Shown here: one piece after another, positions 12,131 through 31,435 of the stretch
Numbering within the stretch: position 1 is the first letter of the stretch
How the letters are laid out: each line of letters begins with the position of its first letter
DNA from: Candidatus Eisenbacteria bacterium
Lineage (GTDB): Bacteria; Orphanbacterota; Orphanbacteria; Orphanbacterales; Orphanbacteraceae
Assembly (NCBI GenBank): GCA_016867715.1
Contig: VGIW01000005.1
Coordinates: 1-64,000 of the forward strand
DNA length: 64,000 nt
Reading direction: 5' to 3'
Position numbers and translations under genes: made by a program
Notes under the pieces: generated by a model
The model's input: the letters and a program-made list of their open reading frames with translations, nothing else
Database searches by the model: none
What the model was told of the DNA's origin: nothing

Positions 12131-13294
12131 CTATGAGGAAGCTTCCCCTAGAAGATCGGCATAGACCTCCGCCAGCCTGACGGATGCGTTTCGCCAGCCG
12201 TGGCGTTCCCTGGCCAGGCGGGTCGCCTCCGGGTCCGGCTCCACTCGGTCCAAATGATAAGAAAACCGGTCGACCCGCGCGACCGTGACGTGCTCGAGAA
12301 GGTCGTCGAAGCCGCGCATGCCGAACGCGGTCGAGATCACCGGGAGGCCGGATCCGAGGTACTGCAGGACCTTGATGTTCGAGCCGGACCCGAAGCGGAT
12401 CGGGTTCAGGCCGATGTCCGCGGCGCGGAAGTAGGGGACGATATCCGGGACCGGGCCGGTGAAGAAGACGCGGTCGCTCGCGGAACGCTCGAACGCGCGG
12501 CCGATCCCCCCCGCGACGAGAAAGAGAACGCCGGCCGGCGCATGCGGGGCGATCGCGCGGAGGATCGACTCGACGGCGTCCCGGTTCGGGGAGACATCCG
12601 AGCCGGCGAAGAGGGCGATGCGGCGCGCGGCCGGAAGCCCGAGACGCGCGCGGATCGCGCGCTTCTCCTCGTCGGTCGCCGGTCGGAAGCGCTCCTCGTC
12701 GAAGCCGTTCGGGACGACGGCGATCTTCTCCGGGTTCGCACCGAACGCGCGGACGAACTTCTCGCGATCCTCCTTCGTCGTCGCGAGCACCCGATCCGCG
12801 CGAAGGACGGCGTTCCGCTCGAGCGCGGCGAGCTTCGCGGCGTGGACGCGCGGGAAGAGGAAGCGCCGAATCTCCCCTTCGTACCAGTCGCTCTCGAAGT
12901 TGTGGCTTCCGTAGACGACGGGGATCCCCCGCGGCACGCGGCGCATCCAGGGCGTCAGCCAGAGGGAATCGAACTGGACGAGATCCCACTCTTCCCGAAG
13001 CCTGCGCGCCGCGGCTCCGGGAAAGAGGTCGTGCGCGGCGGAGACGTGAAAGAACGGAACCGCGCGCATTCTTTCGATGTAATAGAAAAGGGTCTGAAGC
13101 GGCGAGCGGAGGCGGATCTCGAGCACGCCGCCGGGAAGACGTCTCTCGCCGGCGGGGCCCCGGAGGCCGGTCAGCGAGACGAGCGTCCGCTCGTACGCGT
13201 CCGGAAGATGGCGGTACAAGCTCCCGATCCGCTCGGCCCCCGCGCCGAGGTTCTCGTCGATCGGAATCGAGGAGAGGCCGAGAATCTTCTTCAT
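12131..13294 (-). CDS. family 4 glycosyltransferase
   Basis: 387 residues, GT-B fold of the GT4 (group 1) type. The N-terminal acceptor half includes VVYGSHNFESDWYEGE. The C-terminal donor half begins at about 180 with VPNGFDEERF and contains FGSGSNIKVLQYLGSGLPVIST, the nucleotide-sugar contact loop of this subgroup. It should add one sugar to the growing lipid-linked repeat unit at the cytoplasmic face. Start ATG 13294 overlaps the stop of the preceding GT4 gene (ATGA). Donor and acceptor cannot be read from sequence. Confidence 0.88.
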   Translation of the reverse strand: MKKILGLSSIPIDENLGAGAERIGSLYRHLPDAYERTLVSLTGLRGPAGERRLPGGVLEIRLRSPLQTLFYYIERMRAVPFFHVSAAHDLFPGAAARRLREEWDLVQFDSLWLTPWMRRVPRGIPVVYGSHNFESDWYEGEIRRFLFPRVHAAKLAALERNAVLRADRVLATTKEDREKFVRAFGANPEKIAVVPNGFDEERFRPATDEEKRAIRARLGLPAARRIALFAGSDVSPNRDAVESILRAIAPHAPAGVLFLVAGGIGRAFERSASDRVFFTGPVPDIVPYFRAADIGLNPIRFGSGSNIKVLQYLGSGLPVISTAFGMRGFDDLLEHVTVARVDRFSYHLDRVEPDPEATRLARERHGWRNASVRLAEVYADLLGEASS

Positions 13295-14385
13295 GCTTCA
13301 TATACCCGGCGGTACGCCTCGAGCATCCGCTCGAACGAGAACTCGGTCTTGGCGCGCTTCCGGGCCGCCTCCGCCCGTTGCCTGGATGCGGCGGGATCCG
13401 AGAGAGCCTCGCGCATCGCCTCCGCCAGCGCTTCCGCGTTCTCGGGGGGGACGAGAAGCCCGTCGGTTCCGTGGCGGATCGCCTCGACGCTCCCGTCGAC
13501 CGCCGTGGCGACGATCGGAACGCCGGCCGCCATCGCCTCGAGGATCGTGAGCGGAAACCCCTCCCATCGCGAGGGGAGAACGAAGAGGTCGAACCGGCGA
13601 AGGAACGGCCCCGCGTCCGGCACTGCTCCGGCAAAGCGGACGGCTTCGCCGAAAGCGAGGCGCCGCGCCGCTTCCTCGAGCTCGCCGCGCACGGAGCCTT
13701 CCCCCACGATGAGGAGCGCCGCTTCCGGACGCTCCTGTCGGAGCCGCGCGAAGGCATCGAGGAGGAGATCGAACCCCTTCTGCGTCTCGAGGCGCCCGAT
13801 CGCTCCGATCCGAACGCGCGCCCAAGGAGGGAACGGGTCCTCGCCGCCCTCTTCGCCCTCTTCTCTTCTCTCCCCGATTGGGATCCCGTTTCGGATGATC
13901 GTGATCCGGCCGGGATCGATCTTCCAGTAGCGGACGAGGCTCTCTCGGACCGCCTCGGAGACCGCGACGATTCGGTCGTCGAACCGGGCAACGATCCGCT
14001 TCGTCGATCGATCGCGAAGGCCGCACGATTCCCACCGCACGTGCTCCGTGGCGACGACCCTTCGGACGCCGGCCCGCTTCGCGGCAAGCGAGGCGAATCG
14101 GTCTCCGAGCGGCCAGGTCCTATGGACATGAACGATGTCCGGGCGGATCTCTTCGGCCGCCCGCATGAAGGGGAGTGCGCGCGCCAAGCAATCCGTTTCC
14201 TGGAAGGGGATCGCCTCGACGCCGGACCGTCGGAGCTCCTCGCGGAAGGTCTCCGCTTTCTCCGACGCGAAGCAGAGGACCTCCGCCCCTTGCGCCGCGA
14301 AGGCGGAGGCCAAGAGAAGTGTGATCCGCTCGGCGCCGCCGAACGATCGCCCCGTGTCCACGTAGAGGATGCGGCGTCCTTTCAT
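13291..14385 (-). CDS. family 4 glycosyltransferase
   Basis: 364 residues, GT4 family. The N-terminal glycine loop SFGGAERI and VHVHRTW are typical. The C-terminal donor domain has IGRLETQKGFDLLLDAF, then EGFPLTILE, whose paired glutamates are the E-x7-E signature of retaining GT4 enzymes, followed by GVPIVAT. It probably transfers a hexose during repeat-unit assembly. The ATG at 14385 lies 4 bases after the oxidoreductase stop, and its own stop overlaps the next GT4 gene. Confidence 0.9.
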   Translation of the reverse strand: MKGRRILYVDTGRSFGGAERITLLLASAFAAQGAEVLCFASEKAETFREELRRSGVEAIPFQETDCLARALPFMRAAEEIRPDIVHVHRTWPLGDRFASLAAKRAGVRRVVATEHVRWESCGLRDRSTKRIVARFDDRIVAVSEAVRESLVRYWKIDPGRITIIRNGIPIGERREEGEEGGEDPFPPWARVRIGAIGRLETQKGFDLLLDAFARLRQERPEAALLIVGEGSVRGELEEAARRLAFGEAVRFAGAVPDAGPFLRRFDLFVLPSRWEGFPLTILEAMAAGVPIVATAVDGSVEAIRHGTDGLLVPPENAEALAEAMREALSDPAASRQRAEAARKRAKTEFSFERMLEAYRRVYEA

Positions 14386-14389
14386 CGGA

Positions 14390-15400
14390 TCACGCGAGCG
14401 ACACGGTCTTCCCGTCCTTGCGGGCCGATTCGGTCGCCGCCTCGAGGCCGCGCACGACGGCGAGTCCCTCCTCCCCCGTCGCGCGCTCGGGCCTTCCGTT
14501 CGTGATCGCGCGGAGGAAATGGTTCGCTTCGGTCTTCAGGGGTTCCGAGTCGTCCAGCTTCGGGGTAAAGATGTCGCCGAACCGGTAGGCGAGATGGAAC
14601 TCGCCGAAAGTCTCGTAGTGCGGCTGCACCGAAACCCCCTTGTCGTAGATTCGGATCTTCTCGAGCGTCTCCACGTCGTCGTAGACGACCATCTTCTTGC
14701 TCGCGACGAAGGTCGATCGCCGGATCTTGCACGGGTCGAGCCAGCTCACGTGGATGTGCGCGAGGACATCCCCCGGATAGCGGAGGGTGAGAAACGCGAC
14801 GTCCTCCACCGGCCGGCGGATGAAGGACTGCGCGTGCGCGCTCACGGAGAGCGGCCGGTTGTTCAAGACGTAGTTCAGGATCGAGATGTCGTGGGGCGCG
14901 AGATCCCAGATCACGTTGATGTCTTCTTGGAAGATGCCGAGGTTGACGCGGGTGGAGGCGACGTAGTGGATGTCGCCGATCTCTCCGCTCTCCAGGAGCT
15001 GCTTCACCTTGTTCACGGCGGCGGTGAAGAGGAACGTGTGCCCCACCATGAGGGCGCTCCGCTTCTTCTCGGCCGTTTCGACCAGGTCCTCGGCGTCGGC
15101 GACGGAGAGGCTGAGCGGTTTCTCGATCAGCGTCGCCTTCCCCGCCTCGAGGAAACGCTTCGCGATCGAATGATGGCTCGCGACCGGCGTCGCTACGACC
15201 GCCCCATCCACCTCCGAATCCTCGAGCGCGTCCTCGAGGCGCGTCGTCGTTCGGACGTGAGGATAGAGAAGCCTCATGTGAGCCAGCCGCTGTTCGTTCG
15301 TGTCGACACAGTACTTCACCTGGGAGTCCGGAAGCTGGGTGAAGATGCGGATGAAGTTCGGACCCCAGTAGCCGCAACCGATGACCGCGATCTTGTGCAT
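14390..15400 (-). CDS. Gfo/Idh/MocA-family NAD-dependent sugar oxidoreductase
   Basis: 336 residues. The Rossmann motif VIGCGYWGPN is at residues 6-15 and the family signature EKPL, with catalytic Lys about 95, is present; WDLAPHDISIL carries the conserved active-site histidine region. The sequence style is that of WlbA/WbpB-like enzymes that oxidise C3 of UDP-N-acetyl sugars. A DegT-family aminotransferase two genes upstream in the operon (16916-18019) would supply the amination step, so together they could make a 3-amino UDP-sugar; this pairing is inference. The ATG at 15400 has GGAAGGG upstream. Confidence 0.87.
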   Translation of the reverse strand: MHKIAVIGCGYWGPNFIRIFTQLPDSQVKYCVDTNEQRLAHMRLLYPHVRTTTRLEDALEDSEVDGAVVATPVASHHSIAKRFLEAGKATLIEKPLSLSVADAEDLVETAEKKRSALMVGHTFLFTAAVNKVKQLLESGEIGDIHYVASTRVNLGIFQEDINVIWDLAPHDISILNYVLNNRPLSVSAHAQSFIRRPVEDVAFLTLRYPGDVLAHIHVSWLDPCKIRRSTFVASKKMVVYDDVETLEKIRIYDKGVSVQPHYETFGEFHLAYRFGDIFTPKLDDSEPLKTEANHFLRAITNGRPERATGEEGLAVVRGLEAATESARKDGKTVSLA

Positions 15401-15414
15401 GTCGTTCCCTTCCT

Positions 15415-16896
15415 CTAGTATGCGCCTCTTCCGAAGAGGATGACCGGAATCGTTCGAAGTAGGATCTCGAAGTCGAGTTTTAAGGACCAATGATCGATGT
15501 AGTATAGATCGAGAAGAACCATCTCGTTGAACGGAACCTCGCTCCTTCCGCTCACCTGCCAGAGTCCGGTAAGGCCCGGCTTCGCGTCGAGGCGCCTCTT
15601 GTGCCACTCCTTGTAGTATTGCAGCTCGTAGAGGATGGGAGGCCGGGGCCCGACGAGGCTCATCTCCCCCTTGAGCACGTTGTAGAGCTGGGGAAGCTCG
15701 TCGAGGCTCGTCTTGCGGAGCATCACCCCGATGCTCGTGACGCGCGGATCGCGGGTCATCTTGTACACCGGTTTCTCGGACGCTTCCCCCTCGATCTTCA
15801 GCTCCCGTCCCGAAATGAAGTCGTTCGCGTATTCCCGGTGGATCCGGTCGTCGGTGTCGGTCCGCATCGTGCGGAACTTGTAGAACTCGAAAGGTACTCC
15901 CCTCTGCCCCGCGCGGGTCTGCCGGAAGAAGACCGGTCCGGGCGAGAGGATCTTGATGCCGAGCGCGATCATCGCGAAGATCGGAAGAAGAAGAACGAGC
16001 AAGATCGCCGCCGTCACCACGTCGAAGAGGCGCTTCACGAAATAGGAAACGCCGCGCATCGGGTTCTCGCGCACGCCGAGCATCGGGATTCCGTCGACCC
16101 GCTCGATCGTCGCGTGGGATGCGAAGAGCTGAAACTGGTCGGAGACCATCTTCACGGGGACCTTCCCGCGCATGCAGCGCGAGATGAGGTCGATCATCTG
16201 CTCTTCGTTTAGACCGCGGACCGCCACGAAGATCCTCTCGATCTCCTTTTCCTCGACGATCCGCTCGATGTCCGCCGTCGTTCCGAGGATCGGCGCGTCT
16301 CCGACCGTTGTTCCCTTCCTCTGCGGATCGTCGTCGATGAAGCCGGCGATCTCGTAGACGTGGTTCATCGTGAGGCGGGCGAGGCGGACGAAGTGGAGGC
16401 CCGTCTCCCCCGCCCCGACGACCGCCACGCGGCATCGGAACGGATCGCGCTGCTGATTCCGGAGAATCCTCACGCGGAGGATCCCCACGCGGACCACCGA
16501 GAGAAGAAGGATGCAGAGAGCCCAGGCGATCAGGAGCACGAGGCGTCTCTCGAGGAAGTAATGCGTCTTCGTCACGAACGCCGTGGCGAGGATGATGAGG
16601 ACGCCGATGTTCACGCTGTTGAAGATCCCCATCATCTGGTCGAACACGGAAAGATACACTTCGCGGCGATAGAGCCCGTGGGCGCCGAAGATGAGGATCC
16701 AGAGAGCCAAGACCCCGAGAAGCGCGTAGACGTGGACCGGCTCGAACGGGATATGCGTGTCGAAGAAGCCGGAAAGGAGCCGGAACCAGAACGCGGCGAG
16801 GAAGCAGGCGACGATCACGGCGGCATCCGTCGCGACCAGCAGGAGGGCGCGATTGCGGGTCTCGCGCCTTCTTCGTTCCGCCCGGCTCTCCCTCAT
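15415..16896 (-). CDS. polyprenyl-phosphate sugar-1-phosphate transferase (WbaP/WcaJ type)
   Basis: 493 residues. Four or so N-terminal membrane helices (about 15-130) are followed by a Rossmann-like CoA-binding domain (VAVVGAGETGLHF, about 155) and a C-terminal bacterial sugar transferase domain. That last domain includes a membrane segment (AAILLVLLLPIFAMIA), then SPGPVFFRQTRAGQRGVPFEFYKFRTM and SLDELPQLYNVLKGEMSLVGPRPP, the catalytic core of phosphohexose-1-phosphate transferases. It starts repeat-unit assembly by placing a sugar phosphate on undecaprenyl phosphate. It is the large of two such enzymes in this operon; the small one is at 32275-32901. ATG 16896 has GAGGAAGAGGG upstream. Confidence 0.93.
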   Translation of the reverse strand: MRESRAERRRRETRNRALLLVATDAAVIVACFLAAFWFRLLSGFFDTHIPFEPVHVYALLGVLALWILIFGAHGLYRREVYLSVFDQMMGIFNSVNIGVLIILATAFVTKTHYFLERRLVLLIAWALCILLLSVVRVGILRVRILRNQQRDPFRCRVAVVGAGETGLHFVRLARLTMNHVYEIAGFIDDDPQRKGTTVGDAPILGTTADIERIVEEKEIERIFVAVRGLNEEQMIDLISRCMRGKVPVKMVSDQFQLFASHATIERVDGIPMLGVRENPMRGVSYFVKRLFDVVTAAILLVLLLPIFAMIALGIKILSPGPVFFRQTRAGQRGVPFEFYKFRTMRTDTDDRIHREYANDFISGRELKIEGEASEKPVYKMTRDPRVTSIGVMLRKTSLDELPQLYNVLKGEMSLVGPRPPILYELQYYKEWHKRRLDAKPGLTGLWQVSGRSEVPFNEMVLLDLYYIDHWSLKLDFEILLRTIPVILFGRGAY

Positions 16897-16915: not shown

Positions 16916-18019
16916 TTAGGCGTGGAGCGCCTCGCGAAGGGCCCCCGCGACCTCGTCGATCTGAGCCTCGGTCAGCTCGGCGTACATCGGGAGCGACAAC
17001 CCTTGGCTCGCGACCCGCTCCGCGCGCGGGAAGCTCCCCGGCCGATGGCCGAGATGCCGGTACGCCTTGAGGAGATGAACCGGGATCGGATAGTGCAGCC
17101 CGGTCGCGATCCCCTTCTCGGCGAGCCGCTCCCTCAGCCGGTCCCTCTCCTCGGAGAGAACGACGAAGAGATGATAGACGTGGCGCCTCCCCTCCCCCTC
17201 CTTCGGGAGGACGAGAGGAAGCCCCTGGAGCTTCTCCTTGTAAAGCGCCGCCGCGCGTCTCCGTTTCTCGAGCCATCCCTCGAGATGGCGCAGCTTGACG
17301 CTGAGAATCGCGGCCTGGATCGCATCGAGGCGGTGATTGAATCCCTCGATCGTGTGGTCGTGCTTCTCGACGCGCCCGTGATCGACCATAAGGCGCACGT
17401 GCGAGGCGACTTCTTCGTCGTTCGTGACGAGGGCTCCGGCATCGCCGTAGGCCCCGAGGTTCTTTCCCGGATAGAAGCTGTAGCAGACGGCCCGCCCGAG
17501 CGACCCGAGCTTCTTCCCCTGATAGTGCGCCCCGTGCGCCTGCGCGCAATCCGCGATCACGACGAGGCCGCGCTTCTCCGCGATCTCGAGGATCGGCCCC
17601 ATGTCGGCGGGTTGTCCGAAGAGATGCACGGGGAGAATGCACCTCGTCTTCGGCGTGATCGCGTCCTCGAGGGCGTTCGGATCCATGTTGTAGAACTCGG
17701 GTTCCACATCGACGAACCGGACCGAAGCTCCCGCTTGGGTGATCGCCTCCGTCGTCGCGATGAACGTGTTCGGGACGGTGATCACCTCGTCCCCGCGCCC
17801 GATCCCGCAGGAGACGAGAGCGAGTTGAAGCGCCGAAGTTCCGGAGCTCGTTCCGACCGCGAAGCGCGCCCCCACGTACGACGCGAACGCGGTTTCGAAC
17901 TCCGCGACCGGCTTGCCGCCGATGAAGCTCGTGCTCTCCAGGATCGTGTCGATCGCGCCCCGGATCTCACCCTCGATGCTGCGAAGCTGTGCTTTCAAGT
18001 CCACGAACGGTATCGACAT
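16916..18019 (-). CDS. DegT/DnrJ/EryC1/StrS-family PLP aminotransferase
   Basis: 367 residues, full length for sugar aminotransferases. Lys186 in SFYPGKNLGAYGDAG is the pyridoxal-phosphate lysine and IADCAQAHGA (Asp157) contacts the cofactor. N-terminal FVDLKAQ and C-terminal GLHYPIPVHLLKAY are also typical. Such enzymes aminate keto-sugar nucleotides. The oxidoreductase at 14390-15400 could provide the 3-keto substrate, giving a WbpB/WbpE-like pair; this is inference. The ATG at 18019 has GGAG upstream and overlaps the end of the preceding membrane-protein gene by 25 bases. Confidence 0.93.
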   Translation of the reverse strand: MSIPFVDLKAQLRSIEGEIRGAIDTILESTSFIGGKPVAEFETAFASYVGARFAVGTSSGTSALQLALVSCGIGRGDEVITVPNTFIATTEAITQAGASVRFVDVEPEFYNMDPNALEDAITPKTRCILPVHLFGQPADMGPILEIAEKRGLVVIADCAQAHGAHYQGKKLGSLGRAVCYSFYPGKNLGAYGDAGALVTNDEEVASHVRLMVDHGRVEKHDHTIEGFNHRLDAIQAAILSVKLRHLEGWLEKRRRAAALYKEKLQGLPLVLPKEGEGRRHVYHLFVVLSEERDRLRERLAEKGIATGLHYPIPVHLLKAYRHLGHRPGSFPRAERVASQGLSLPMYAELTEAQIDEVAGALREALHA

Positions 18020-20718
18020 CTTTCGGCTCCTCGAAGGGCGGGTCCTCCCCCGCCTCTCTCGTTCGCGAAGAGGTCCGGCCCGCTCTCCGCACGATTCCGA
18101 TTCTCCGGGGCAAACGGGGGCCGGACGGCCCGCTCGAGAACGTTTCTTGGATCGGTCCCCTTCCGCTCGCCGGAGAGACGGGGCGGGGGGCCCGCGGCCT
18201 GCCGGACGACGAGGCGTCCGACGGCGACTCCGGAAAACGAATCGCGTTCGCTCACGAAGTCCCGCAGATAGTAGTTTCGAATGAAAGAGGACCGCCGGAG
18301 GGCGACCTCGAGGTCGTAGAGGCCCGGTTCGAGATCGGCCGGAATCGTCCATCGGATCGTGTCCGCGACGAGCGCTCCGACCGGCCATTCCTCGGGCGGA
18401 TAGGCCCCTCGTAGGAGGTTCCGCATGGTTCGCGCCCGCGCGAGCCGGCCGGTTCGGATCTCGCGGGCTTTCCGCTCCCACTTCGCCCATGCGCCGCCCG
18501 CCGCGCCTCCGGCTTGCACGAGGCGAAGGTAGACCTTGTGTGGGAGCGGATCGTCGGTCTCTCCTTCTTTCGACCAGTAGCAGGCGAGCGCGACCGTTCC
18601 TCCCGCGTGGATCGTGTCCGGGGACGCGAGCGCCCCCGCGAGACGAACGCGGTTCGGGAAGAGATGGTCCGCGCGCGAGGCCTCGGCCGGAAGCGCCTCG
18701 ACGCGGGCGGAGAGAACCGCGGTCTCTTCCCCTCCGCCTTCCGCATCATCATAGCGGAACGCGAACAGGTGACAGCGGTCGCGCGCGTAGATCTCCCGGT
18801 AGCGCTTGGGATCGCGCCGGAACTTCTCCAGGGTCGGCTCGTAGAGTCCGGGATCGAGGCTCGCGAGGTAGCTCGTGTATCGATCGCGAAGCCGGAAGTT
18901 GATGAGTACATAATCGACATCATAATGCTTGAGAATACGCGCGGTTTCGGCACCGGAGACGTAGGGGCTCATCGACCGGATCATGTCGCGTACGCGCTCT
19001 GGCGCGAGCGGGTCGCCGGTCGAGCTGTGCTGCTCGAGAACGGCAATCGTCTTCTGCGGCGTGCAGGCGGGGATCAGGTAGCCGGTGATCGGGTCGGTCG
19101 CCACCGCCGCCCGCGCCGGAAGCTCCCTCTCCATGAACGCGAAGAGATCGCTCCACGCCTCGGGTCTGGGCGCGTCGGCGAGCCGGCACGGCTTCGCGGC
19201 GAGGCGCATCCGGAGGTCCTCGGCGTCCGCCGAGCGAAGGCTTCCGGCGAAGAGGGCAGAGAGGACGAGAAGCCCCGCGAGCGCGCCGATCCTCCGCGGC
19301 GCCGGCTTCCCGCGCGCGGCGGTCTCCGTCCAGCGCGCGGCCAAGAACCCGAGCACGAGGAACTGCCCGCCGAACCAGACGATCCGCCCGAGAAGGTATC
19401 CGACGAGGGGGACGAGGAGCGGCGCGAGGAGTGGGTTCAGGATGAGGAGGAACGGGAGGAGCGCCGTCGAGACGGCGAGGAGAACCCCGCGATCCTGGCC
19501 CGCCCGGGGGAGGAGGAGAAGGGCGAGCGGAATGCCGGCGAGGCCGAAGAGCCCTACGCGATCGAACGCGAGAAGTGGGTTCGCCGTGTAGAGACGTTCG
19601 GTCACGTGCACGATCCCTTGGAGGTGCGTGTGGATCGGGTCGAGCGGCGGGTAGCTCGTCGCGAGCCTCCAGATTCCGATCGGAAGGGCGCCGGCGGCGA
19701 GGAAGACGAGGGAGACGAGCGCGGGCTTGCGCGCGCCTCTCCCCGCGGGCGCGATCGCGAGCGCAATCCAGTAGAGCCCGCCGAGAAGGAGCGCGGTGAC
19801 CGCGGAGAAGACGTGGATCCCCATGAGCGCGAAGCCGGTGAGGAAGAGGCCGACCGCGGGGGCTCTCCCTTCTCGCACGGCGCGGAGCACGAGCCAGAAA
19901 GCGCACCAGACCGCCGGAGCGGCGAAGAGGTAGGGAGATGCGCTCCGTCCGAACCAGGCGCCGAACACGCCTCCCTCCCACGAGAGGACGGCGAAGGCGA
20001 GAGCGAGAACCGCCGCCCTACTCCGGCCGAGGCTCTCCCGCGCGAGCGCGTGGAAGGAGAGCGCGAAGAGAAACGCGGTGAGCGCGGGGAGCGTGTCATG
20101 AACCGCGCGAGCCCCGACTCCCGCGAGCGAGCCGGCCGCCGCCGCGGCCGGAAGGACGAACCCCTTCCGCGAGTCAAGGCGCTGGTCGGTGCTCTTCGCG
20201 TAGTAGCTCGTGAGGGGGAAGCACTCCCCCGTGTCCTGAATCTCGCGGAGGACGGCGATGTGGTCGAGAGCGTCGCTCGGGAGCGTCACGAGGCCCCCCT
20301 TCGCGAGCGCCGCGGCCGCGATGAGAACCGCGAAGAGAAGAAGCGCCGGCGGCGTCTCCCCCACGGTCCTCCGCGCGCGCGCGAAAAGGACCACGGAGGC
20401 AACGAGGAGGAGCGGTCGGACGAGCCAAGCGAAGATCCTCGTGCCGGCCCCCGCAAGCTCCCCCGCGAAGAGTGGAAGAAAGGAGACCGCGCAGGAGACG
20501 GGGAAGGCTAGCGCGAGCACGTGTTCCTTCCTTGCGTCGCGCGCGCCCCCTGCGGCGGAGAGAAGCGCGTAGCCGACCGAGAAGAAGATCCCCCCCGCCA
20601 CCGCGAGGAACCGGATCCGTTCGGGTCCGAGCGGGACGAACGTCGCCGCGAACCCGAGGAGCGCGACGGCGCCCGCGAGGACCGCCGCGATGTCGCCGCT
20701 ACTCCGGTTCTGCTTCAA
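17995..20718 (-). CDS. large multi-pass membrane protein, GT-C-like (paralog of 22159-24582)
   Basis: 907 residues, unnamed family. Roughly 12-13 membrane helices span residues 10-490, and an extracytoplasmic region of about 400 residues follows. The first large loop holds SDALDHI (Asp149, Asp152, His153) and LDSRKG (181-186), the place where GT-C glycosyltransferases keep their catalytic acid. Motifs shared with the paralog include GIHVFSA, YPP-x4-HTHLQG, LNPLLAPL...GYLLGRI, TDPITGY...EQHSS, DYVLIN and a beta-sandwich ending ADLEPGLYDLE. It probably transfers sugars from a polyprenyl-phosphate donor; this is inference. The start is TTG 20718 with AAGGG upstream. The last 70 residues are Arg/Pro-rich and overlap the next gene. 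Confidence 0.8.
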   Translation of the reverse strand: MKQNRSSGDIAAVLAGAVALLGFAATFVPLGPERIRFLAVAGGIFFSVGYALLSAAGGARDARKEHVLALAFPVSCAVSFLPLFAGELAGAGTRIFAWLVRPLLLVASVVLFARARRTVGETPPALLLFAVLIAAAALAKGGLVTLPSDALDHIAVLREIQDTGECFPLTSYYAKSTDQRLDSRKGFVLPAAAAAGSLAGVGARAVHDTLPALTAFLFALSFHALARESLGRSRAAVLALAFAVLSWEGGVFGAWFGRSASPYLFAAPAVWCAFWLVLRAVREGRAPAVGLFLTGFALMGIHVFSAVTALLLGGLYWIALAIAPAGRGARKPALVSLVFLAAGALPIGIWRLATSYPPLDPIHTHLQGIVHVTERLYTANPLLAFDRVGLFGLAGIPLALLLLPRAGQDRGVLLAVSTALLPFLLILNPLLAPLLVPLVGYLLGRIVWFGGQFLVLGFLAARWTETAARGKPAPRRIGALAGLLVLSALFAGSLRSADAEDLRMRLAAKPCRLADAPRPEAWSDLFAFMERELPARAAVATDPITGYLIPACTPQKTIAVLEQHSSTGDPLAPERVRDMIRSMSPYVSGAETARILKHYDVDYVLINFRLRDRYTSYLASLDPGLYEPTLEKFRRDPKRYREIYARDRCHLFAFRYDDAEGGGEETAVLSARVEALPAEASRADHLFPNRVRLAGALASPDTIHAGGTVALACYWSKEGETDDPLPHKVYLRLVQAGGAAGGAWAKWERKAREIRTGRLARARTMRNLLRGAYPPEEWPVGALVADTIRWTIPADLEPGLYDLEVALRRSSFIRNYYLRDFVSERDSFSGVAVGRLVVRQAAGPPPRLSGERKGTDPRNVLERAVRPPFAPENRNRAESGPDLFANERGGGGPALRGAERCRYRSWT

Positions 20719-22162
20719 GGCGTGCCCTTTCCCTTTCGTCGGCTCTCCGCACGGCGACGCGGCTCGCCGAGACGAGGAGCCCGAGCATCGTCCATGTGAA
20801 ATGCTGCGTGTTCTCGTACCGCAGGAACGCGATCTTGATCTCGTCCACGAAGAAGATCACGAGGATCCCGGATAAGAGCACGACGGTGTACGCCAGCTCG
20901 CTCCGCTGGGTCGCGTAGCGCTTCGCCGCGCGGTAGCTCATGCGAAACGCGCGAAACAGCATCCAATAGAAGACGAGGGCGCCCGGGATCCCGATCGTGT
21001 GCGCGAGAAACAGAAAGAGACTGTGCGGGTCTTGGTGATCGACGTTCTTCTCATCCACGCCCTGGAAATAGAAGGGGCCATAGCCGATCCAGGGGCTTTC
21101 CTTGATGCGTCCCCATGCCTCGCTCCACCGTTGTGCGCGCGTGTCCGGCATTCCGCTGATGAACTTCGTCTTTCCCAACCGGCCGAAGAGCGAGGCCGTT
21201 TCCGTGTACCTGTCCAGGACGAGGGCGGAAGCATAGAAGATCAAGGACGCCGTGATGAGAACCGGAAGGAGCTTCTGGTAGTTGATGATCTTGCGGGCGA
21301 TCCAAACGAGATAGACGATGCCTGCTATAAGGCTGAGGAAGGCTCCGCGCGTTGCGGTCGCGAGAAGAAGCATGATCGCAATCCCGAGGAGAGGGGTCCA
21401 GACGAGCTGCTTCAGCACGGCCCTCTCGTTCAGAACACGGATGAGCAATATCGGGATGAAGATCGCGAGATACTCCGCGAACATCTCGTAATCCCCGAAG
21501 ACCGAGCCGACGCGGATCCCTTGTACGGTAGCGATCTGCACGCTCTTCACGCGGAGGATTTCGAAAACGTACGCGTAGCGGGGCAGCCATAGCTCCACAA
21601 TCGCCACGAGCGTGACGAAGCAGAACGATACGAGAAGCGCGTTCAGGACGAAGTGGATGTCCCTCTCCGTCCGAATCAGGTTCACCACCAGATAGAAGAT
21701 GAGAATCGACGAGATGTAGATGCGGAACTTGGCCACCGCCTGGGCCCAGTGTCCGGGGTCCACCGCCGCGAACGAGATCACGTAGCAGAGGGTGAGAAGG
21801 ATGAGCGGAACCTCGAGCCCGGACGTGATCGGCCTTCTCTCGTATCCGAGAGCCACGCGGAGAATCCAGAACGCGAAAATAATGAACGCGAAGATGACCG
21901 TGGTGCTTCCGATCGTTGTGTACTGCGGGAAGGGGATGATGAACAGCATGAAGCCGACCGACCAGCGGCTCGGCAATAGGAACGCCGCAACGAGGACGGC
22001 GGCGCCCATCAGGAACTCGATCATCCGCTTGCTCGGGCTGAGGATCTGTCCGGAGAGGATGAACCCGATCCCGGCCGCAACGAGAAGAGAGACGCCGAGC
22101 CCCACGACCTCCGGCCGCACGCTCCGCACCCGCTCGCCGAAACGCCCCGGGTTTGGCCTCAC
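20699..22162 (-). CDS. O-antigen polymerase/ligase-like membrane protein (Wzy/WaaL superfamily)
   Basis: 487 residues with about 12 membrane helices and one large periplasmic loop (about 320-390), the layout of the O-antigen ligase/polymerase family. GSVFGDYEMFAEYLAI and the loop segment RWSEAWGRIKESPWIGYGPF followed by DPHSLFLFLAHTIGIPG match the conserved region of that family, in which a loop His and Arg are functionally important. It could polymerise repeat units or ligate the glycan to a carrier; sequence alone does not decide. Start GTG 22162 (GTGA overlap with the previous stop) has GGAGGTG 5 bases upstream. It sits between two paralogous giant membrane proteins. Confidence 0.88.
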   Translation of the reverse strand: MRPNPGRFGERVRSVRPEVVGLGVSLLVAAGIGFILSGQILSPSKRMIEFLMGAAVLVAAFLLPSRWSVGFMLFIIPFPQYTTIGSTTVIFAFIIFAFWILRVALGYERRPITSGLEVPLILLTLCYVISFAAVDPGHWAQAVAKFRIYISSILIFYLVVNLIRTERDIHFVLNALLVSFCFVTLVAIVELWLPRYAYVFEILRVKSVQIATVQGIRVGSVFGDYEMFAEYLAIFIPILLIRVLNERAVLKQLVWTPLLGIAIMLLLATATRGAFLSLIAGIVYLVWIARKIINYQKLLPVLITASLIFYASALVLDRYTETASLFGRLGKTKFISGMPDTRAQRWSEAWGRIKESPWIGYGPFYFQGVDEKNVDHQDPHSLFLFLAHTIGIPGALVFYWMLFRAFRMSYRAAKRYATQRSELAYTVVLLSGILVIFFVDEIKIAFLRYENTQHFTWTMLGLLVSASRVAVRRADERERARLEAEPE

Positions 22163-24582
22163 GGAAGCACCTCCAGCGTGTCGAGGACGGTCCATCCGGT
22201 TCGGATCGCGCCGCGTTCGAGCCCTCGGATCCTTCGCACCGGAAAGAAACGCGCCTCGTCCGCCGCCGCCTCGATCTCGTAGATCCCCGGCGGAAGATCG
22301 GAGGGGACGCGGACGAAATGGCTGTCGGCGACGACGTCCCCTTCCCTCCAGAGGAGGTACGGGTAGTCCGGCTCGCCGAGCAAGAACGCGTTCCACTGGC
22401 GCCGCGCCGGATCCCTCCGAAGCGCGAAGCGCTCGGGTGCGCGCATTCCGAGAGGCTGCGCGCGCACATGAAGTTGGACCGGAACCGCCCCGGCGTCCTC
22501 TCCCGTGAGCTCCCAGCGGGTGATCAGGACTCCTCCCTCGCCCGGTCTCGCCCGTTCGGCGCCGTACCGGGCCTCCAGAAGAACGAGGCCTGCCGCTGTC
22601 GGCTGCCGGAGGTGTGGTCTCCCGAGCGGAGGATCGGCGCGCGGGGAATCCTCCTCGTGCGGGGCGGGGGGGCCGTGGACCTTCCAAAGCGACAAGCCCT
22701 CCGGCGCGTCGATCCGTTCGAAGCGCTCCGGGCGTTTCTCGATCGCCTCGCGGCAGGAGCGGAACGACTCGCGCCGGATCGCGACGTTGTACGTTCGAAA
22801 GTCGCGCGGGAATCGTTCGTTGATGAGTACATAATCGATCTCATGATCATCGAGAATCGCGTCGGCCGCGCCGGCAGAGAGGCGGCCGAGGAGAAAGCGC
22901 TGGCTCTCGGCGAGGCGGCGCGGCGCCTCCTTGTCGTTCGGCGAGGAGTGCTGGTCGAGAATCGCCGCCGGGTGGACGAGGCCCTTCCCGAAAAGGGTGT
23001 AGCCGGTCACCGGGTCGGAAAGGAGACCCGCGCCCACCGGGATGCGATCGAGAATCCGCTCGAGAGGAAGCTCCCAATCCATTCTGGTTTCGGGAGTTCC
23101 GAGCGGGAGATCGCGGCGCGGCTCCGCCCGGGCCGCCGGGGAGAGAACCGTGGCTCCTACCGCGAGGAGGGCGGCGAGGGCGGGAAGCGCAGCGCGCGCG
23201 CGTCGTCTCCCCTCCCACCCCCCGCGGATCGCCGCGGCCGCCACGAACCCGGACGGAACGAGGAGCGGGATCCTCCGCGCGAGGTACCCGGCCTTCTCCT
23301 CGACGAGCGGAAAGAAGAGCGGGTTCAGGACGAGGAGGAGAACGACCAGCGACGCCGAGACGAGAAAGACCTCGCCCGCTCCGAAGGGCCGCTCCGGCGG
23401 CGCCACGAAGGGGAGCAGGAGAAAGGAGACGAACCCGGCGAGCCCGATCACCTGGGCGAGCGTGATCGGATCGATCACCGAAAGGTTTCCGGGAAGAAGG
23501 AGAACCCCCTGACGGTGCAGATGTAAAGCGTTCGACGGGGGATACGCGTGAACGAGCCTGAAGACGAGAAACGGAAGCGCGCCGATCACGCTCCCCGCCA
23601 GGAAGTGAACCGCCCCGGGCGCCTCGGAGCGGAGCCTTCGGACGAGAAGGAGCCCCGCCGCGAGCGCGCCGCTTCCGAGCCAAACGAGGATCGCGCTGAA
23701 GGCGTGGACGCCGGCAGTTCCCGCGCCGAGGAGAACGGCCAGAAGAGTTCCGCGCGTCTTCCGTTTCCGCCGGGAACTCTCGATCGCGAGCGCGGCCGCC
23801 TGGATGTAGAGAAGCGGCCCCGCCTTCCCCGGATAGCCGGCGGCGGCGAACCACTCGTCCTCGAGACCTGCGCGACAGAGAAGAAGGAACGCCCCGGCCG
23901 CGACCCAGGGGATCGTCCGCCCTCCGAACACGCTTCCCGCAAGCCAGAAGATCGTGAGCACGAGAAGGGCGATGTGCATCTTTCCGAACAGTGCATAGGC
24001 GTCCCCGGGGTCCGTTCTCGACAAGGCGCACGCGAGCGCGAAGAGCGTGTGGTTCGTCCCCTTCCGCGGATCGAGAAGCGCCTCCCGCCCCTTGTGGAAG
24101 TACTCGCCCGGCAAGACATCGGCGCGCGCGATCTGGAATCGGACGGTTCCGATGTGATCGGGCGCGTCGGTCCAGAAACCCTCGCGCGGGCTCGTCGTCA
24201 GGGCAAGGAGAAGAGCGATGCCGGCGAGAGGCCAGAGGCGTGCGTCCCTCTTCGATTCCGCGCCGGGAGGGTCGCCGGCCCACGCGCTCCAGGCGCCGAG
24301 AAGGAGGAACGGCGCGAGAAGGGCTCCGAGCGGAAGGCCGGCGACGTGGAACGCGAGAACGAGAAGAGCGAGGATGCCGTGGCCGATTCCCCACGCGAGC
24401 GGAATGCGGATGCGGAGCGGGCTTCCCGGGCGGAGCCGTCCCGCGATCCACCATCCGGGAAAGAGCGCGAGCGCGAGAAACGCGGCCGGGAAGCGAGCTT
24501 CCGCCGGGAGCGAGCTCCCGAGCGCCGCCGCGCCCCAAAGGGCGGCGAAGAGCGCGCCGCGGATCCATCTCCCTTCGTTCAT
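22159..24582 (-). CDS. large multi-pass membrane protein, GT-C-like (paralog of 17995-20718)
   Basis: 807 residues, the same unnamed family as 17995-20718. About 12 membrane helices (10-500) precede an extracytoplasmic tail. The first-loop motif TDAPDHI (Asp139, Asp142, His143) and LDPRKG (170-175) align with the paralog, as do GVHAFSA, YPP-x4-LHLHRQG, LNPLFFPL...GYLARRI, SDPVTGY...DQHSS, DYVLIN and the beta-sandwich PSDLPPGIYEIE. It is 100 residues shorter, mainly through the absence of the Arg/Pro-rich tail. A lipid-linked-sugar glycosyltransferase is the best guess from loop-1 acidic residues and topology. ATG 24582 follows the GT2 stop by 4 bases. Confidence 0.8.
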   Translation of the reverse strand: MNEGRWIRGALFAALWGAAALGSSLPAEARFPAAFLALALFPGWWIAGRLRPGSPLRIRIPLAWGIGHGILALLVLAFHVAGLPLGALLAPFLLLGAWSAWAGDPPGAESKRDARLWPLAGIALLLALTTSPREGFWTDAPDHIGTVRFQIARADVLPGEYFHKGREALLDPRKGTNHTLFALACALSRTDPGDAYALFGKMHIALLVLTIFWLAGSVFGGRTIPWVAAGAFLLLCRAGLEDEWFAAAGYPGKAGPLLYIQAAALAIESSRRKRKTRGTLLAVLLGAGTAGVHAFSAILVWLGSGALAAGLLLVRRLRSEAPGAVHFLAGSVIGALPFLVFRLVHAYPPSNALHLHRQGVLLLPGNLSVIDPITLAQVIGLAGFVSFLLLPFVAPPERPFGAGEVFLVSASLVVLLLVLNPLFFPLVEEKAGYLARRIPLLVPSGFVAAAAIRGGWEGRRRARAALPALAALLAVGATVLSPAARAEPRRDLPLGTPETRMDWELPLERILDRIPVGAGLLSDPVTGYTLFGKGLVHPAAILDQHSSPNDKEAPRRLAESQRFLLGRLSAGAADAILDDHEIDYVLINERFPRDFRTYNVAIRRESFRSCREAIEKRPERFERIDAPEGLSLWKVHGPPAPHEEDSPRADPPLGRPHLRQPTAAGLVLLEARYGAERARPGEGGVLITRWELTGEDAGAVPVQLHVRAQPLGMRAPERFALRRDPARRQWNAFLLGEPDYPYLLWREGDVVADSHFVRVPSDLPPGIYEIEAAADEARFFPVRRIRGLERGAIRTGWTVLDTLEVLP

Positions 24583-24586
24583 CGGT

Positions 24587-25273
24587 TCACGATCTCCTCG
24601 GTCCGCCGAACCGTCTCTTCACGAGGAAGAGAAGGTTCTGAATGCCGTCCTTCCACATGTTCAGCTTCACCTCGCCGATTCGCTCGTGGTAGTCGATCGG
24701 GTGCTCGCCGAACCGCACGTCCTTCGCCAGGATCGCCTCGATCTTCAGCTCCTCCGAGAAGGCCATCCCGTCCGAACCGGGGGCGATCTTCGGGTAGATC
24801 GACGAGTAGAACGCCCACATGCCCGATTGCGAATCCCGGATCGCCCGGAGAAAGAGGAGAAGAGTGGCCGCGGTCAGCACCCAGTTGCCGAACCGGTTCA
24901 TGATCTGCATCGATCCCTTCTTCCGTAAAGGGAATCGAGAGGCCGACACGAAGTCGAAGCCTCCGTCGAGAAGATGGTCGAGAAGCGGGGCGATCTCCTC
25001 GACCGGATAGCTCCCGTCGCCGTCGAGCGTGACGACGATCTCCGATTTCGCGGCGGGGATCCCGGTCTTGTACGCGCGCCCGTACCCCTTCCTCTTCTCG
25101 TGAATCACCCGCGCCCCGAGATTCCGCGCCACCTCGCCGGTCCGGTCGGTCGAGTTGTTGTCCACCACCACGATCTCGTCGATGAAGGAGGGCATCCGTT
25201 CGATCACGTGCCGGACCCCCTCTTCTTCGTTGTAGCAGGGGATCACTGCGGAGACGGTCTTGTTACGGTACAT
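24587..25273 (-). CDS. family 2 glycosyltransferase (DPM1-like polyprenyl-phosphate sugar synthase)
   Basis: 228 residues. VSAVIPCYNEEEGVRHVI, VVDNNSTDRT and the metal-binding LDGDGSYP are GT2 motifs; RDSQSGMWAF matches the conserved SG-x-R/W region of dolichol-phosphate-mannose-type synthases. No membrane segment is obvious apart from one weak helix near 130-145. It likely makes a polyprenyl-phosphate-linked hexose, which is the type of donor GT-C enzymes use, so it may supply the two large GT-C-like neighbours; this is inference. ATG 25273 has GGAG 7 bases upstream. Confidence 0.9.
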   Translation of the reverse strand: MYRNKTVSAVIPCYNEEEGVRHVIERMPSFIDEIVVVDNNSTDRTGEVARNLGARVIHEKRKGYGRAYKTGIPAAKSEIVVTLDGDGSYPVEEIAPLLDHLLDGGFDFVSASRFPLRKKGSMQIMNRFGNWVLTAATLLLFLRAIRDSQSGMWAFYSSIYPKIAPGSDGMAFSEELKIEAILAKDVRFGEHPIDYHERIGEVKLNMWKDGIQNLLFLVKRRFGGPRRS

Positions 25274-25288
25274 GCGAAGACTCCATCC

Positions 25289-26791
25289 TCAACGCGAGTC
25301 GCTGTTTCGGAACAGCCAGCGCGCGAGAAGCCGCTTCCCGGGGGCGTTCGACCGTTCGAGAAGCGCGCGCTCCTCCGGCCCGAACACCCCGACCCAACGG
25401 ACGGCGATCGCGAAGAGCACGACGGCCGCGACGAGTAGCGCGAGAAACCCGGGCGGCGAGCCCGCGTAGGGGCGCGCCGGAACGAGGAGAACGAGCACCG
25501 CCGAGGCGAGATAGCACCTTCCGAGGAAGCGCCAAGGGATGCCGATCGGTCCGTAGTATTTCCGCACCGCCCAGCCCCGGAGAAACGGCGAGATCCCGAC
25601 CGCGAGCGCGACCCCCGGGATCGCCCCGGGGAGGCCGTAGCGCGGGATGAGCAGGAGATCGACGCCGAGGTTCACCGCCGCGAAGAGGGCGGAGAGCGCG
25701 AGGTTCACGCCGGTCTTCTCCAAGAGATAGAGCGCCATCGAGTACGGGGTCCCGAAGAAGGACACGTGAAAGATCACGAAGAAGATCTGCGCGTAGGGGC
25801 CCGAGGCGGCGCGCTCCGCGCCGTAGAGAACCCGCACGAGGAGATCCCCGTAACACGCGCCGAAGAGCGTGATCGGCGTGACCAAGAGGAAGAGAAGCCG
25901 GAAGTAGTGGCGCGTCATTTCCGCGAGGCGGGCGCGGTCTCTCGTGTACACCTCGACGAACGCGGCGAGAACGAGCGGCCAGATCGTCTCCGGAACGAAC
26001 TCGAGAAGAAGCTGCGGGAGCCGGTACGCGATGTCGAAGATCCCCGCCTCCGCAGCGCTCCGGAAGTGGCCGAGGAGAAGCGTTTCCGACTGGCGCCAGG
26101 TGACGAGGTTGAGGATCTCGATCGCGAGAAGCGGTAGGGCGTAGCGGGCGATTCTCGATCCTTCCCGCGGGCCCGGCCTTGCGGCAAGCGATTTCCGGAG
26201 AAGCGCGACCGCGACGAGACCGAGAAGAAGATGCGGCAACGAGGTCGCCGCGAGCACGCCGATCACTCCCCACCCGGCTCGGAGCGCACCCCAGGTGAGG
26301 AGGAGGATGGCGACGCTGAGAAAGCCCTGAAGAAACGCGAGCCGTTTCGTTTGGAACGTCGCGTTTAGCGCGTTCATCGCGAGGGAGAAGAGCAGGTTCC
26401 CCGAGAGGAGCGCGAGCCCCGCGAGGAGCGGGGTGCCGATCGGCGTCCCGTAGAGGGCGTCGATCGTCCCCCGGAGCCCGAACGCGAGAGCGACGAAGAG
26501 GACCCAACCCGCCGCTTGGAGAAGGCCGCAGAAGCGAAGGAGCCGGAGCGATCCCGCGCCGCTCGACTCCCGCTCGGGGAGATAGCGAAGGATCGCGTTC
26601 CCCATCCCGAGACCGATGATCGCCGCCGCGAAGGCGAGCGCCGTCCGCACGATCGCGAGCTCTCCGTACGCTTCCGCCGAGAGAAGACGCACGACGAGCA
26701 TCGACGCCCCCAGCGAGAAACCGAACCGGAGCGCCTTCGCGAGAAGGCTCCACGGGACCGCCGAAGAGGCCTTGGCCAGCGTTCCGCTCAA
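25289..26791 (-). CDS. Wzx-type polysaccharide flippase (MOP superfamily)
   Basis: 500 residues with about 12-14 membrane helices and few soluble stretches, the layout of the polysaccharide-specific MATE/MOP transporters. The first helix region, SLLAKALRFGFSLGASMLVVRLLSAEAYGEL, is typical of Wzx N-termini. It would move the lipid-linked repeat unit across the inner membrane to the polymerase at 20699-22162. Start TTG 26791 overlaps the stop of the preceding gene (TTGA) with GGAG about 7 bases upstream; a longer frame to 26908 lies inside the neighbour and carries a low-complexity leader. Confidence 0.88.
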   Translation of the reverse strand: MSGTLAKASSAVPWSLLAKALRFGFSLGASMLVVRLLSAEAYGELAIVRTALAFAAAIIGLGMGNAILRYLPERESSGAGSLRLLRFCGLLQAAGWVLFVALAFGLRGTIDALYGTPIGTPLLAGLALLSGNLLFSLAMNALNATFQTKRLAFLQGFLSVAILLLTWGALRAGWGVIGVLAATSLPHLLLGLVAVALLRKSLAARPGPREGSRIARYALPLLAIEILNLVTWRQSETLLLGHFRSAAEAGIFDIAYRLPQLLLEFVPETIWPLVLAAFVEVYTRDRARLAEMTRHYFRLLFLLVTPITLFGACYGDLLVRVLYGAERAASGPYAQIFFVIFHVSFFGTPYSMALYLLEKTGVNLALSALFAAVNLGVDLLLIPRYGLPGAIPGVALAVGISPFLRGWAVRKYYGPIGIPWRFLGRCYLASAVLVLLVPARPYAGSPPGFLALLVAAVVLFAIAVRWVGVFGPEERALLERSNAPGKRLLARWLFRNSDSR

Positions 26792-27957
26792 CGCTCGTCT
26801 CCATCTTCCATCCCGCCGTGCGCGCGCGCCGCTTCCGCCTCCACCAGAGACGCGAGATCCTGGATCGACCGAACCCCTTCCGGGATCGGCCGGTTCGAGA
26901 GAAGGCATCCGTCCGAGCCGCGCTCCTCGGGGCGGTATCCGTGCATGGCGGCCGGCGGCGCGGATCCCATGAACGAGGGGACGATCACCGTCCCCGCGTC
27001 GGCGACGAAGATCGACTCCCCGTACTCTCTCCCCGGGAAGTAGACGCCGTACCGCTTCTCCTCGTCGGTAGAGAGAAGACGTCCTCCTTCCGTCTCATCG
27101 AGCAGCGCGCGGATGCTTCGCTCCGCCTCGCCGTTTCGGAACCAGAAGCGGGCAAAGGTTGAATCATAAAATGGAAGGTAGTCCTTCCCCTCGCGGAAGG
27201 GGAGGGCGCGCACGCGCTGCATGAGGTCGATCGTCCGCTCGACGTCGACCATCCCGTGGTCGCTGAAGAGAAGAAGGGTCGTCTCGTCGAAGCGCCTCTT
27301 CGCTTCGTCCAGGACCGCGCGAAGGCGCTCCTCGTACCGCCGGATCCGCTCGCGCGTCTCGGGGGACCTCGTGCCGTGCTCGTGCATCGTCCCATCGAGC
27401 GCGAAGGCATAGAAGAAGAGGAAGGGAACGTCCCCCGCGCGCGCCGAGGAGAGAAGCTCCTCGAAATTCCGATCCTCGGGAGTGCGCCAGAACCAGACCC
27501 GATGCGGAATGCGGCGCTCCTCGATCCGGTCAAAGAGGGTGGGGAATCCATCGAGAGCGCCCGGCTCGAAGACCGGGCGGCGCTCCGGAAGGTCGAACCA
27601 AGGGAGGAGCCGGAGCGGGACCTGATACAGATGGTAGTAGCCGCGGATCTCGGTGAACGAGGCGAAGCACCTCTCATACGCCGTTCGCGCGCGCCTCCCG
27701 ACCCCGGGGGTGCTCTCGAGGGGAGCGAGGAGGCGCGCGAAACCAAAGGGAGTCTCGGACGGGTTTCTGCGATAGAGAAACCAACGACCGTGCTCGTCCG
27801 GCCGGCGTCCGCTGAGGAGCGAGGGGAGAGCGGCTGAGCTGAACCCAAGAACGGTGCGGAGGGGTTTCCGGTGCTCGAGTTCGGGGAGGAACGGATGAGC
27901 CTTCAGAACCTCCCAACCGAACGCATCGATGAGAACGGCGATCGTGAGGCGCCTCAT
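26788..27957 (-). CDS. soluble alkaline-phosphatase-superfamily (PF01663-like) hydrolase/transferase
   Basis: 389 residues with no signal peptide or membrane helix, so it is predicted to be cytoplasmic. VLIDAFGW gives the first metal-binding aspartate (Asp11), GFSSAALPSLLSGR the nucleophile region (Ser40/41), LFSDHGMVD the second Asp-His metal pair near residue 234, and AMHGYRPE a third histidine. These are the motif positions of type I phosphodiesterase/nucleotide pyrophosphatases. A cytoplasmic location among glycan genes suggests turnover of a nucleotide sugar or phospho-intermediate, but the substrate is unknown. ATG 27957 overlaps the preceding stop (ATGA). Confidence 0.78.
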   Translation of the reverse strand: MRRLTIAVLIDAFGWEVLKAHPFLPELEHRKPLRTVLGFSSAALPSLLSGRRPDEHGRWFLYRRNPSETPFGFARLLAPLESTPGVGRRARTAYERCFASFTEIRGYYHLYQVPLRLLPWFDLPERRPVFEPGALDGFPTLFDRIEERRIPHRVWFWRTPEDRNFEELLSSARAGDVPFLFFYAFALDGTMHEHGTRSPETRERIRRYEERLRAVLDEAKRRFDETTLLLFSDHGMVDVERTIDLMQRVRALPFREGKDYLPFYDSTFARFWFRNGEAERSIRALLDETEGGRLLSTDEEKRYGVYFPGREYGESIFVADAGTVIVPSFMGSAPPAAMHGYRPEERGSDGCLLSNRPIPEGVRSIQDLASLVEAEAARAHGGMEDGDER

Positions 27958-29234
27958 GGCATCTCCACGGGGAGCGGGGGGCGGCTCCCCCCCATCACCT
28001 CCCGGTTCCAGTACCCGCAGACGCTCCCGCGAAGGGCGAGCCAGCGCCGTGCGAACGCGTCCTTTCCGTTCGCGCCCACCGGAGCGATCCGCCCTGCCTC
28101 GGCGAGGAACGCGCGGTCGCTCGTCCTCTCCTCCTCACCGGTCAGAGGGCCGGACGCGCGAAGGAGAAGGACCGCCGCCGCGTAGTTGGCCGCGAGAGGC
28201 GTCGCCGGAAGCCCGCGCTCGAGCGCGCGCACGAGCGAGCCGAGCCCTCCCGCTCCCTCCCGCCGGATAAAGCGGATCCACGCGCGAGCTCTTCTCCGGA
28301 GAGGATCCGCGCCCCGAATCGCCTCCTCCGCGGCCGCGCCGGGCCGCGCGCCGAAGATGCGCGCCGTCTCCCAATCCCAGAGCGCATCGACGTACTTCCG
28401 TTTCCTCGCCTGCGCTTCTCGAAAAGCCCCCGCGTTCCCGTATCGTCTCCTGGCCTCTTCGAGGTCCGGGCGCTCCTTCTGCTCGCACCAGAACGCGTGG
28501 TCCTCGCCGAAGCCGGGCGCGCGCTCCTCGATCGGTTCACGCTTCAACAAATCGGGGAGCGCCTCCCTCCTCTCCCGCAAGGTCGGCCGGAACGAGCGGG
28601 CGACGACGAGCGCGCTCGTCCCGAGGTCCCGAACCGTCTTCCCGAAGCGGTACCAGAAGTCCCTCTCCTCCGCGCCGCGCGGGGCTCGCGCGCGGAACTC
28701 CGCGAGCTCTTCCGTCGCGCGGTTCAGGAGAAGAAGAAAACCGTCCCGGGGCGGGATCTCCTCGAAACGGGGACGGCTTGCGAGGCGGAGCGTTTCCGGG
28801 TCCCCGGCGAGGATCTTGCCGAAGCGGACCAGGAGGCAGTTCGCCACCGAGGGCTGGAGCTTGGCCAAGCGATCGGGCGAGGTCACGCCCAGATCGACGA
28901 CGAGCCCGGGCACCCCGAGCAGAGAGAGCAGCCGCTCTCGGAAGCCGACCATCCGAGCGCTCAGCTCCCCAACGTTCTCTTCCTCTGTGACCAGATACAG
29001 GTCGATGTCGCTTCCCGGGCGCAACCCTCCTTCTTCCAGGGCGTACGCGCTCCCCTCGCCCAGCGCGAGGCTTCCAGAGAGAACGACCGAGACGAGACCG
29101 CGTCCTTCCGTTTCTTTCCGAATCTCCTCGGCCGCTCGCCGAAGGAGACTTCGGTAGAAGAGGTCCGTCTCCCGGTCCGGCGAGGTCGCGAACCGAAGAG
29201 GACCGCTCCTCTCCTCCTTTTCGCTCGGAACCAC
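27954..29234 (-). CDS. nucleotidyltransferase-fold protein of unknown substrate
   Basis: 426 residues. The N-terminal third has the polymerase-beta-type nucleotidyltransferase pattern: SGSLALGEGSAY (Gly54-Ser55), then GSDIDLYLV (Asp76, Asp78), and the third acid Asp114 in GLVVDLGV. The spacing between GS and DxD is longer than usual because of an insertion near 60-73. The C-terminal 280 residues are helical, with no recognised domain. Such enzymes move NMP onto proteins, RNA or small molecules. Location between the tyrosine-kinase-like gene and a phosphodiesterase-like gene is suggestive only. Start GTG 29234 follows the upstream stop by about 19 bases with weak ribosome-binding signal. Confidence 0.65.
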   Translation of the reverse strand: MVPSEKEERSGPLRFATSPDRETDLFYRSLLRRAAEEIRKETEGRGLVSVVLSGSLALGEGSAYALEEGGLRPGSDIDLYLVTEEENVGELSARMVGFRERLLSLLGVPGLVVDLGVTSPDRLAKLQPSVANCLLVRFGKILAGDPETLRLASRPRFEEIPPRDGFLLLLNRATEELAEFRARAPRGAEERDFWYRFGKTVRDLGTSALVVARSFRPTLRERREALPDLLKREPIEERAPGFGEDHAFWCEQKERPDLEEARRRYGNAGAFREAQARKRKYVDALWDWETARIFGARPGAAAEEAIRGADPLRRRARAWIRFIRREGAGGLGSLVRALERGLPATPLAANYAAAVLLLRASGPLTGEEERTSDRAFLAEAGRIAPVGANGKDAFARRWLALRGSVCGYWNREVMGGSRPPLPVEMP

Positions 29235-29997: not shown

Positions 29998-30006
29998 GTC
30001 GATTCT

Positions 30007-31419: not shown

Positions 31420-31435
31420 GTCGGGACTCCTCCTC

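Follow-up and report, generated by a model that had tools for sequence, protein, structure and literature searches.

What do two very large, related membrane proteins contribute on either side of an exopolysaccharide polymerase? The question is raised by a stretch of 64,000 nucleotides from Candidatus Eisenbacteria bacterium, referred to here as the window, in which two proteins, designated A and B, bracket a Wzy/WaaL-like enzyme (Table 1). The initial annotation had read both as GT-C-like glycosyltransferases of an unnamed family; here we compared them with known families at the profile level and followed their relatives, and the genes beside them, through other genomes.

The pair and its operon

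Both open reading frames of the pair were found as the initial annotation had described them, with a protein matching Wzy_C encoded in between, and BLASTP aligned A with B at 28% identity over 684 columns (E 1e-30); by sequence, the two are distantly related paralogues. All of the motifs that had been listed as common to them occur in both proteins, although the last reads PG-x-Y-[DE]-x-E and not, as first given, PGY[DE]xE. The C-terminal ~65 residues of A are regarded as not conserved, since several orthologues stop near residue 840. In direct searches, A and B gave no meaningful match in Pfam, NCBIfam or PDB sequences, and no GT-C profile or PDB sequence matched either protein directly; a match of B to 3x27 (E 0.0015) covered part of the C-terminal region only and was taken as chance, and the family profile produced chance matches only when compared with the PDB.

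Judged from its genes, this is an exopolysaccharide operon of the Wzx/Wzy type, and a complete one. The open reading frame listed for Wzy extends to 22687, and its start was placed near 22159 on the basis of orthologue lengths. For the three proteins of kinase signalling, chain length and export encoded at 29254-32992, the best-scoring models were of the XrtA/PEP-CTERM or Eps type, with nearly all scores below cut-off. Between the tyrosine kinase and Wzx (26788-29234) lie genes for a type I phosphodiesterase/nucleotide pyrophosphatase-like protein (PF01663, 3.8e-15) and for a weakly matching NTP_transf_2-like protein, both of which are conserved in the exopolysaccharide loci of the phylum.

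Table 1. Features of the exopolysaccharide locus, in window coordinates
Feature	Position	Strand	Basis or remark
GT4 glycosyltransferase	12131-13294	-	
GT4 glycosyltransferase	13291-14385	-	
Gfo/Idh oxidoreductase	14390-15415	-	
WbaP/WcaJ-type initiating phosphoglycosyltransferase	15415-16896	-	
DegT aminotransferase	~16916-18019	-	
A: GT-C-like membrane protein, 907 aa, paralogue of B	17995-20718	-	ORF and BLASTP
A, predicted C-terminal extracytoplasmic domain, ~residues 496-842; invariant DPxT[GS]Y ... QHSSxxD...R, PGxY near end	18193-19233	-	topology and conservation
A, predicted extracytoplasmic loop of the GT-C core, residues 143-208; D149, D152, H153, D182, R184	20095-20292	-	topology and alignment
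Wzy_C polymerase/ligase between A and B, ~485 aa	20699-22159	-	PF04932, 5.2e-17; 5' boundary approximate
B: GT-C-like membrane protein, 807 aa, paralogue of A	22159-24582	-	ORF and BLASTP
B, predicted C-terminal extracytoplasmic domain, residues 483-807; motifs as in A	22162-23136	-	topology and conservation
B, predicted loop equivalent to that of A, residues 129-197; D139, D142, H143, D171, R173	23992-24198	-	topology and alignment
GT2, dolichol/polyprenyl-phosphate-sugar synthase kind; directly upstream of B in orthologous loci	24587-25273	-	homology
Wzx-type flippase	25289-26908	-	
Tyrosine autokinase (exopolysaccharide export/length control)	29254-29997	-	
Wzz-type chain-length protein	30007-31419	-	
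Poly_export/Wza	31436-32992	-	

The GT2 beside B resembles dolichol-P-mannose synthase 5MLZ (4e-12) and AglJ/dolichyl-phosphate hexose transferase, and its nearest relatives are dolichol-phosphate mannose synthase and archaeal dolichyl-phosphate sugar transferases. GT2 enzymes of the dolichol-P-mannose-synthase kind make monophosphate donors for GT-C enzymes, and this GT2 is likely, from its sequence, to be the donor maker for A and B. No SMR- or GtrA-type flippase gene adjoins the pair in the window; the only flippase beside it is Wzx.

Profile relationship to GT-C glycosyltransferases

An alignment of 39 family members (A2) served as the profile for hhalign comparisons. Against 16 PMT_2 proteins from a related phylum it gave a profile-profile match of Prob 96.4% (E 1.1e-9) over ~240 columns, in which D149 of A and D139 of B aligned on the Asp of the FRDExYY-type motif of PMT_2. 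Control profiles of Wzx, Wzy, DegT and PDE reached a Prob of at most 0.3% (Wzx, 0.2%), and reversed or block-shuffled controls at most 2%; in jackknifes of the PMT_2 set the match stayed at ~94% or above. Sub-profiles built from B only, from A plus B, or from the outside sequences only scored 94.4-96.1% with the Asp aligned in each, while the A sequences alone gave a weaker match (80.5%) over later columns. STT3, likewise GT-C, did not match A2 when represented by a set of two sequences. AlphaFold2 models had pLDDT values of 34 and 36, too low for a fold search; their input of only three and two sequences was drawn from the window's own proteins and from the fragment L003 of a sister MAG of the same genus.

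The PMT_2 set itself matched ArnT (5EZM, 9.3e-19), with the PMT_2 Asp falling on the PDE motif of ArnT, reported to hold the active-site pair D55/E56 (PMC7801869); the three-residue offset between the chain numbering in our alignment and that pair is presumably due to a tag. In GT-CA enzymes, an essential Asp lies beyond TM1, at the tip of juxtamembrane helix 1 (JM1; PMC12041299), and D149 and D139 occupy that position (after core TM1, on the outer face) by sequence and predicted topology. Taken together, the PMT_2 match, the aligned invariant Asp and the step from PMT_2 to ArnT support the GT-C assignment first proposed for both proteins, and indicate that A and B are homologues of GT-C enzymes of the GT-CA type, forming an unnamed branch for which the fold is deduced from profiles. 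The relationship is distant: neither A nor B matched the Pfam PMT_2 model (PF13231), and what they share with PMT_2 and ArnT is the early transmembrane core, in which their invariant Asp aligns with the catalytic one. Unlike these enzymes, A and B begin with four additional transmembrane helices, carry a second invariant motif of the D-x-RKG type in the loop, and have a different C-terminal domain.

Topology was predicted from mean hydropathy and Lys/Arg counts (positive-inside); the N terminus is placed inside, and ~15 transmembrane helices are predicted, four of them N-terminal and followed by the core. The first core helix would be TM5 (residues 124-142 of A), leading into a 66-residue outer loop that carries D149. 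The placement of the Asp in the first external loop thus holds for the GT-C core but not for the whole protein, in which about five transmembrane helices precede D149. Eleven residues are invariant in the 39 homologues (A numbering: D149, D182, R184, H302, P429, R445, D542, Y547, H564, D569 and R575), and D152 and H153 are conserved in most of them. The conservation of the first-loop Asp and His, on which the initial annotation had staked its reading, held up: the Asp (D149 in A, D139 in B) was present in 39/39 homologues and the His (H153) in 34/39. In the predicted topology, the invariant residues all lie on outer loops or in the outer C-terminal part of ~410 residues; the segment around H302 (residues 287-322 of A) was read as a short hairpin because the loops on both sides of it are positively charged.

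The family also proved related to DUF6541 (PF20176), a Pfam family of unknown function for which our literature search found no paper mentioning it. A2 matched DUF6541 at 98.5% (3.2e-15) over ~600 columns in hhalign, and nine of the 39 members matched it individually, the best at 2.7e-8; A and B themselves did not match the Pfam model at E values up to 1, and are related to it at the profile level only. The homology to DUF6541 takes in the PG region near the N terminus, the loop motif D..xH and the beginning of the C-terminal domain. In contrast, A and B are longer, with an additional C-terminal region, and none of the six DUF6541 proteins examined showed their outer-domain motif DPxT[GS]Y ... 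QHSS ... D. By these sequence comparisons, the A/B family is unnamed and related to DUF6541.

Distribution of the family and its neighbours

Genes for both A and B were present, in the order GT2-B-Wzy-A, in 7/7 genomes sampled from the window's phylum, which all belong to one taxonomic family. The whole series GT2-B-Wzy-A-DegT lies on a single contig in five of these (the window's genome and four relatives), preceded by the NTase, PDE and Wzx genes; loci L037 and L038 have one additional gene between A and DegT. In the remaining two genomes the genes are cut by contig ends, and every visible junction agrees with the same order. A search of other sampled genomes with the alignment of the phylum's A/B set (A1) returned relatives with strong E-values in 3 of 379 and, in addition, a single weak match; in the phylum to which one of these belongs the family was found in 32/47 genomes. 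Two matches were listed in three of the 32. One such pair came from a single ORF matched in two parts, and each of the other two pairs consisted of fragments that lie on different contigs and correspond to different parts of the model, so that no tandem pair was seen in this second phylum and the family is, as far as seen, single copy there. As to whether the pair always brackets a Wzy/WaaL-like gene, a point raised by the initial annotation, it did so throughout the seven genomes of the window's phylum but not beyond them, and outside the phylum the family was found without an orthologue of the window's Wzy. Scans of viral contigs for further family sequences found none.

In an unrooted tree with long branches, A and B each formed a clade (100/100 for both) and stood jointly apart from the outside sequences (91/94), a topology consistent with one old A/B duplication in the window's lineage. 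In one of the outside members, the protein at L100 8068-10821 (the same as L086 1105-3858), the core match and the final ~140 matched residues are separated by ~110 residues, compared with ~40 in the model, which suggests inserted or diverged sequence ahead of the C-terminal part.

The combination of donor synthase, flippase and GT-C enzyme is the pattern of three-component extracytoplasmic glycosylation, which includes the GT136 system (PMC11127046). As in such systems (GtrA/GtrB/Gtr*, ArnC/EF/T, GT136), the surface-polysaccharide locus here has a synthase-like GT2 next to a GT-C-like enzyme; the GT2 of the window qualifies as the polyprenyl-phosphate-sugar synthase by homology only. The window differs from them in that two GT-C-like paralogues bracket Wzy and in having no adjacent dedicated small flippase. 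Outside the phylum, a small EamA-type transporter adjoins the family member in three loci. In L095 (7048-8572) and L096 (6686-8210), the succession of GT2, DUF2304 and EamA genes directly upstream of it matches the three-component pattern and suggests that DUF2304 takes part in the supply of polyprenyl-phosphate sugars; in L092 an EamA-like gene adjoins it. In a plain listing of neighbours, most other outside loci had Wzx-type flippases or GT2 genes nearby, and L099 and L100 had neither. Membrane proteins of a possible GT-C kind were also encoded near family members, one matching DUF2298 (L101 4354-6447, 4.1e-7) and one matching PMT_2 (L094 4961-6751, 1.4e-8).

Proposed function and alternatives

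We consider it probable, on sequence grounds, that A and B are extracytoplasmic GT-CA enzymes which move polyprenyl-phosphate sugars onto the operon's exopolysaccharide at the outer face of the inner membrane. The adjacent GT2 would load a sugar onto polyprenyl monophosphate at the cytoplasmic face, and the loaded lipid would be flipped outward; A and B would then transfer the sugar to what the neighbouring Wzy polymerises, either the repeat unit on its lipid carrier or the growing chain, and so complete or decorate the repeat unit; the catalytic residue suggested by the alignment is the invariant Asp of the core's first outer loop. Since diphospholipid-linked donors serve enzymes of the Wzy/WaaL kind, polymerases and ligases alike (PMC10920833), A and B would draw on a lipid-linked donor other than that of Wzy. 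From their genomic context, A and B may hand on or decorate the same glycan, and the divergence of the two copies suggests two different additions to one exopolysaccharide, one per enzyme.

The same enzymes could instead act on a protein, as PMTs do, or on a lipid, as ArnT does. By profile, the named proteins closest to A and B are those of the PMT_2/ArnT/PMT kind, which act on lipid A or on proteins, and the occurrence of the family outside the phylum without the window's Wzy is in keeping with such acceptors; we nevertheless regard them as unlikely, given that A and B bracket Wzy within one exopolysaccharide operon in all seven genomes of the phylum. A different division of labour, in which catalysis falls to one of the paralogues and the second serves as its partner subunit, would make the pair a heterodimer like Pmt1-Pmt2 or EmbA-EmbB, possibly together with Wzy. 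Strict co-occurrence in a fixed order around Wzy throughout the seven genomes, and the two old, well separated clades, favour such a pairing, but the invariant polar residues are all retained in both clades, so that neither protein looks degenerate, and we hold the heterodimer to be improbable.

Their many transmembrane helices, their position in a Wzx/Wzy cluster and the lack of a dedicated donor flippase adjoining the pair might be taken to mean that A and B move lipid-linked sugars across the membrane, as transporters or flippases, and are not transferases. This is very improbable: the family profile matched PMT_2 and not Wzx in the comparisons above, the invariant Asp lies at the catalytic position, and the operon has a separate Wzx. 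Returning to the reading of A and B as glycosyltransferases acting on the exopolysaccharide, a bolder form of it, which we offer as speculation and think rather unlikely, would unite A, Wzy and B in one outer-face assembly, with two different GT-C enzymes decorating the repeat unit while it is being handled by the polymerase, and would make A, B and DUF6541 a large, enzymatically uncharacterised GT-C family.

The profile relationships tie an unnamed family, and with it the uncharacterised DUF6541, to GT-C glycosyltransferases and name a candidate catalytic Asp, so that the function of A, B and DUF6541 becomes testable by a single point mutation. Across the phylum, two GT-C-like enzymes bracket the exopolysaccharide polymerase, an arrangement which suggests that surface-polysaccharide assembly in these uncultured bacteria constantly includes a step of sugar addition at the outer face.
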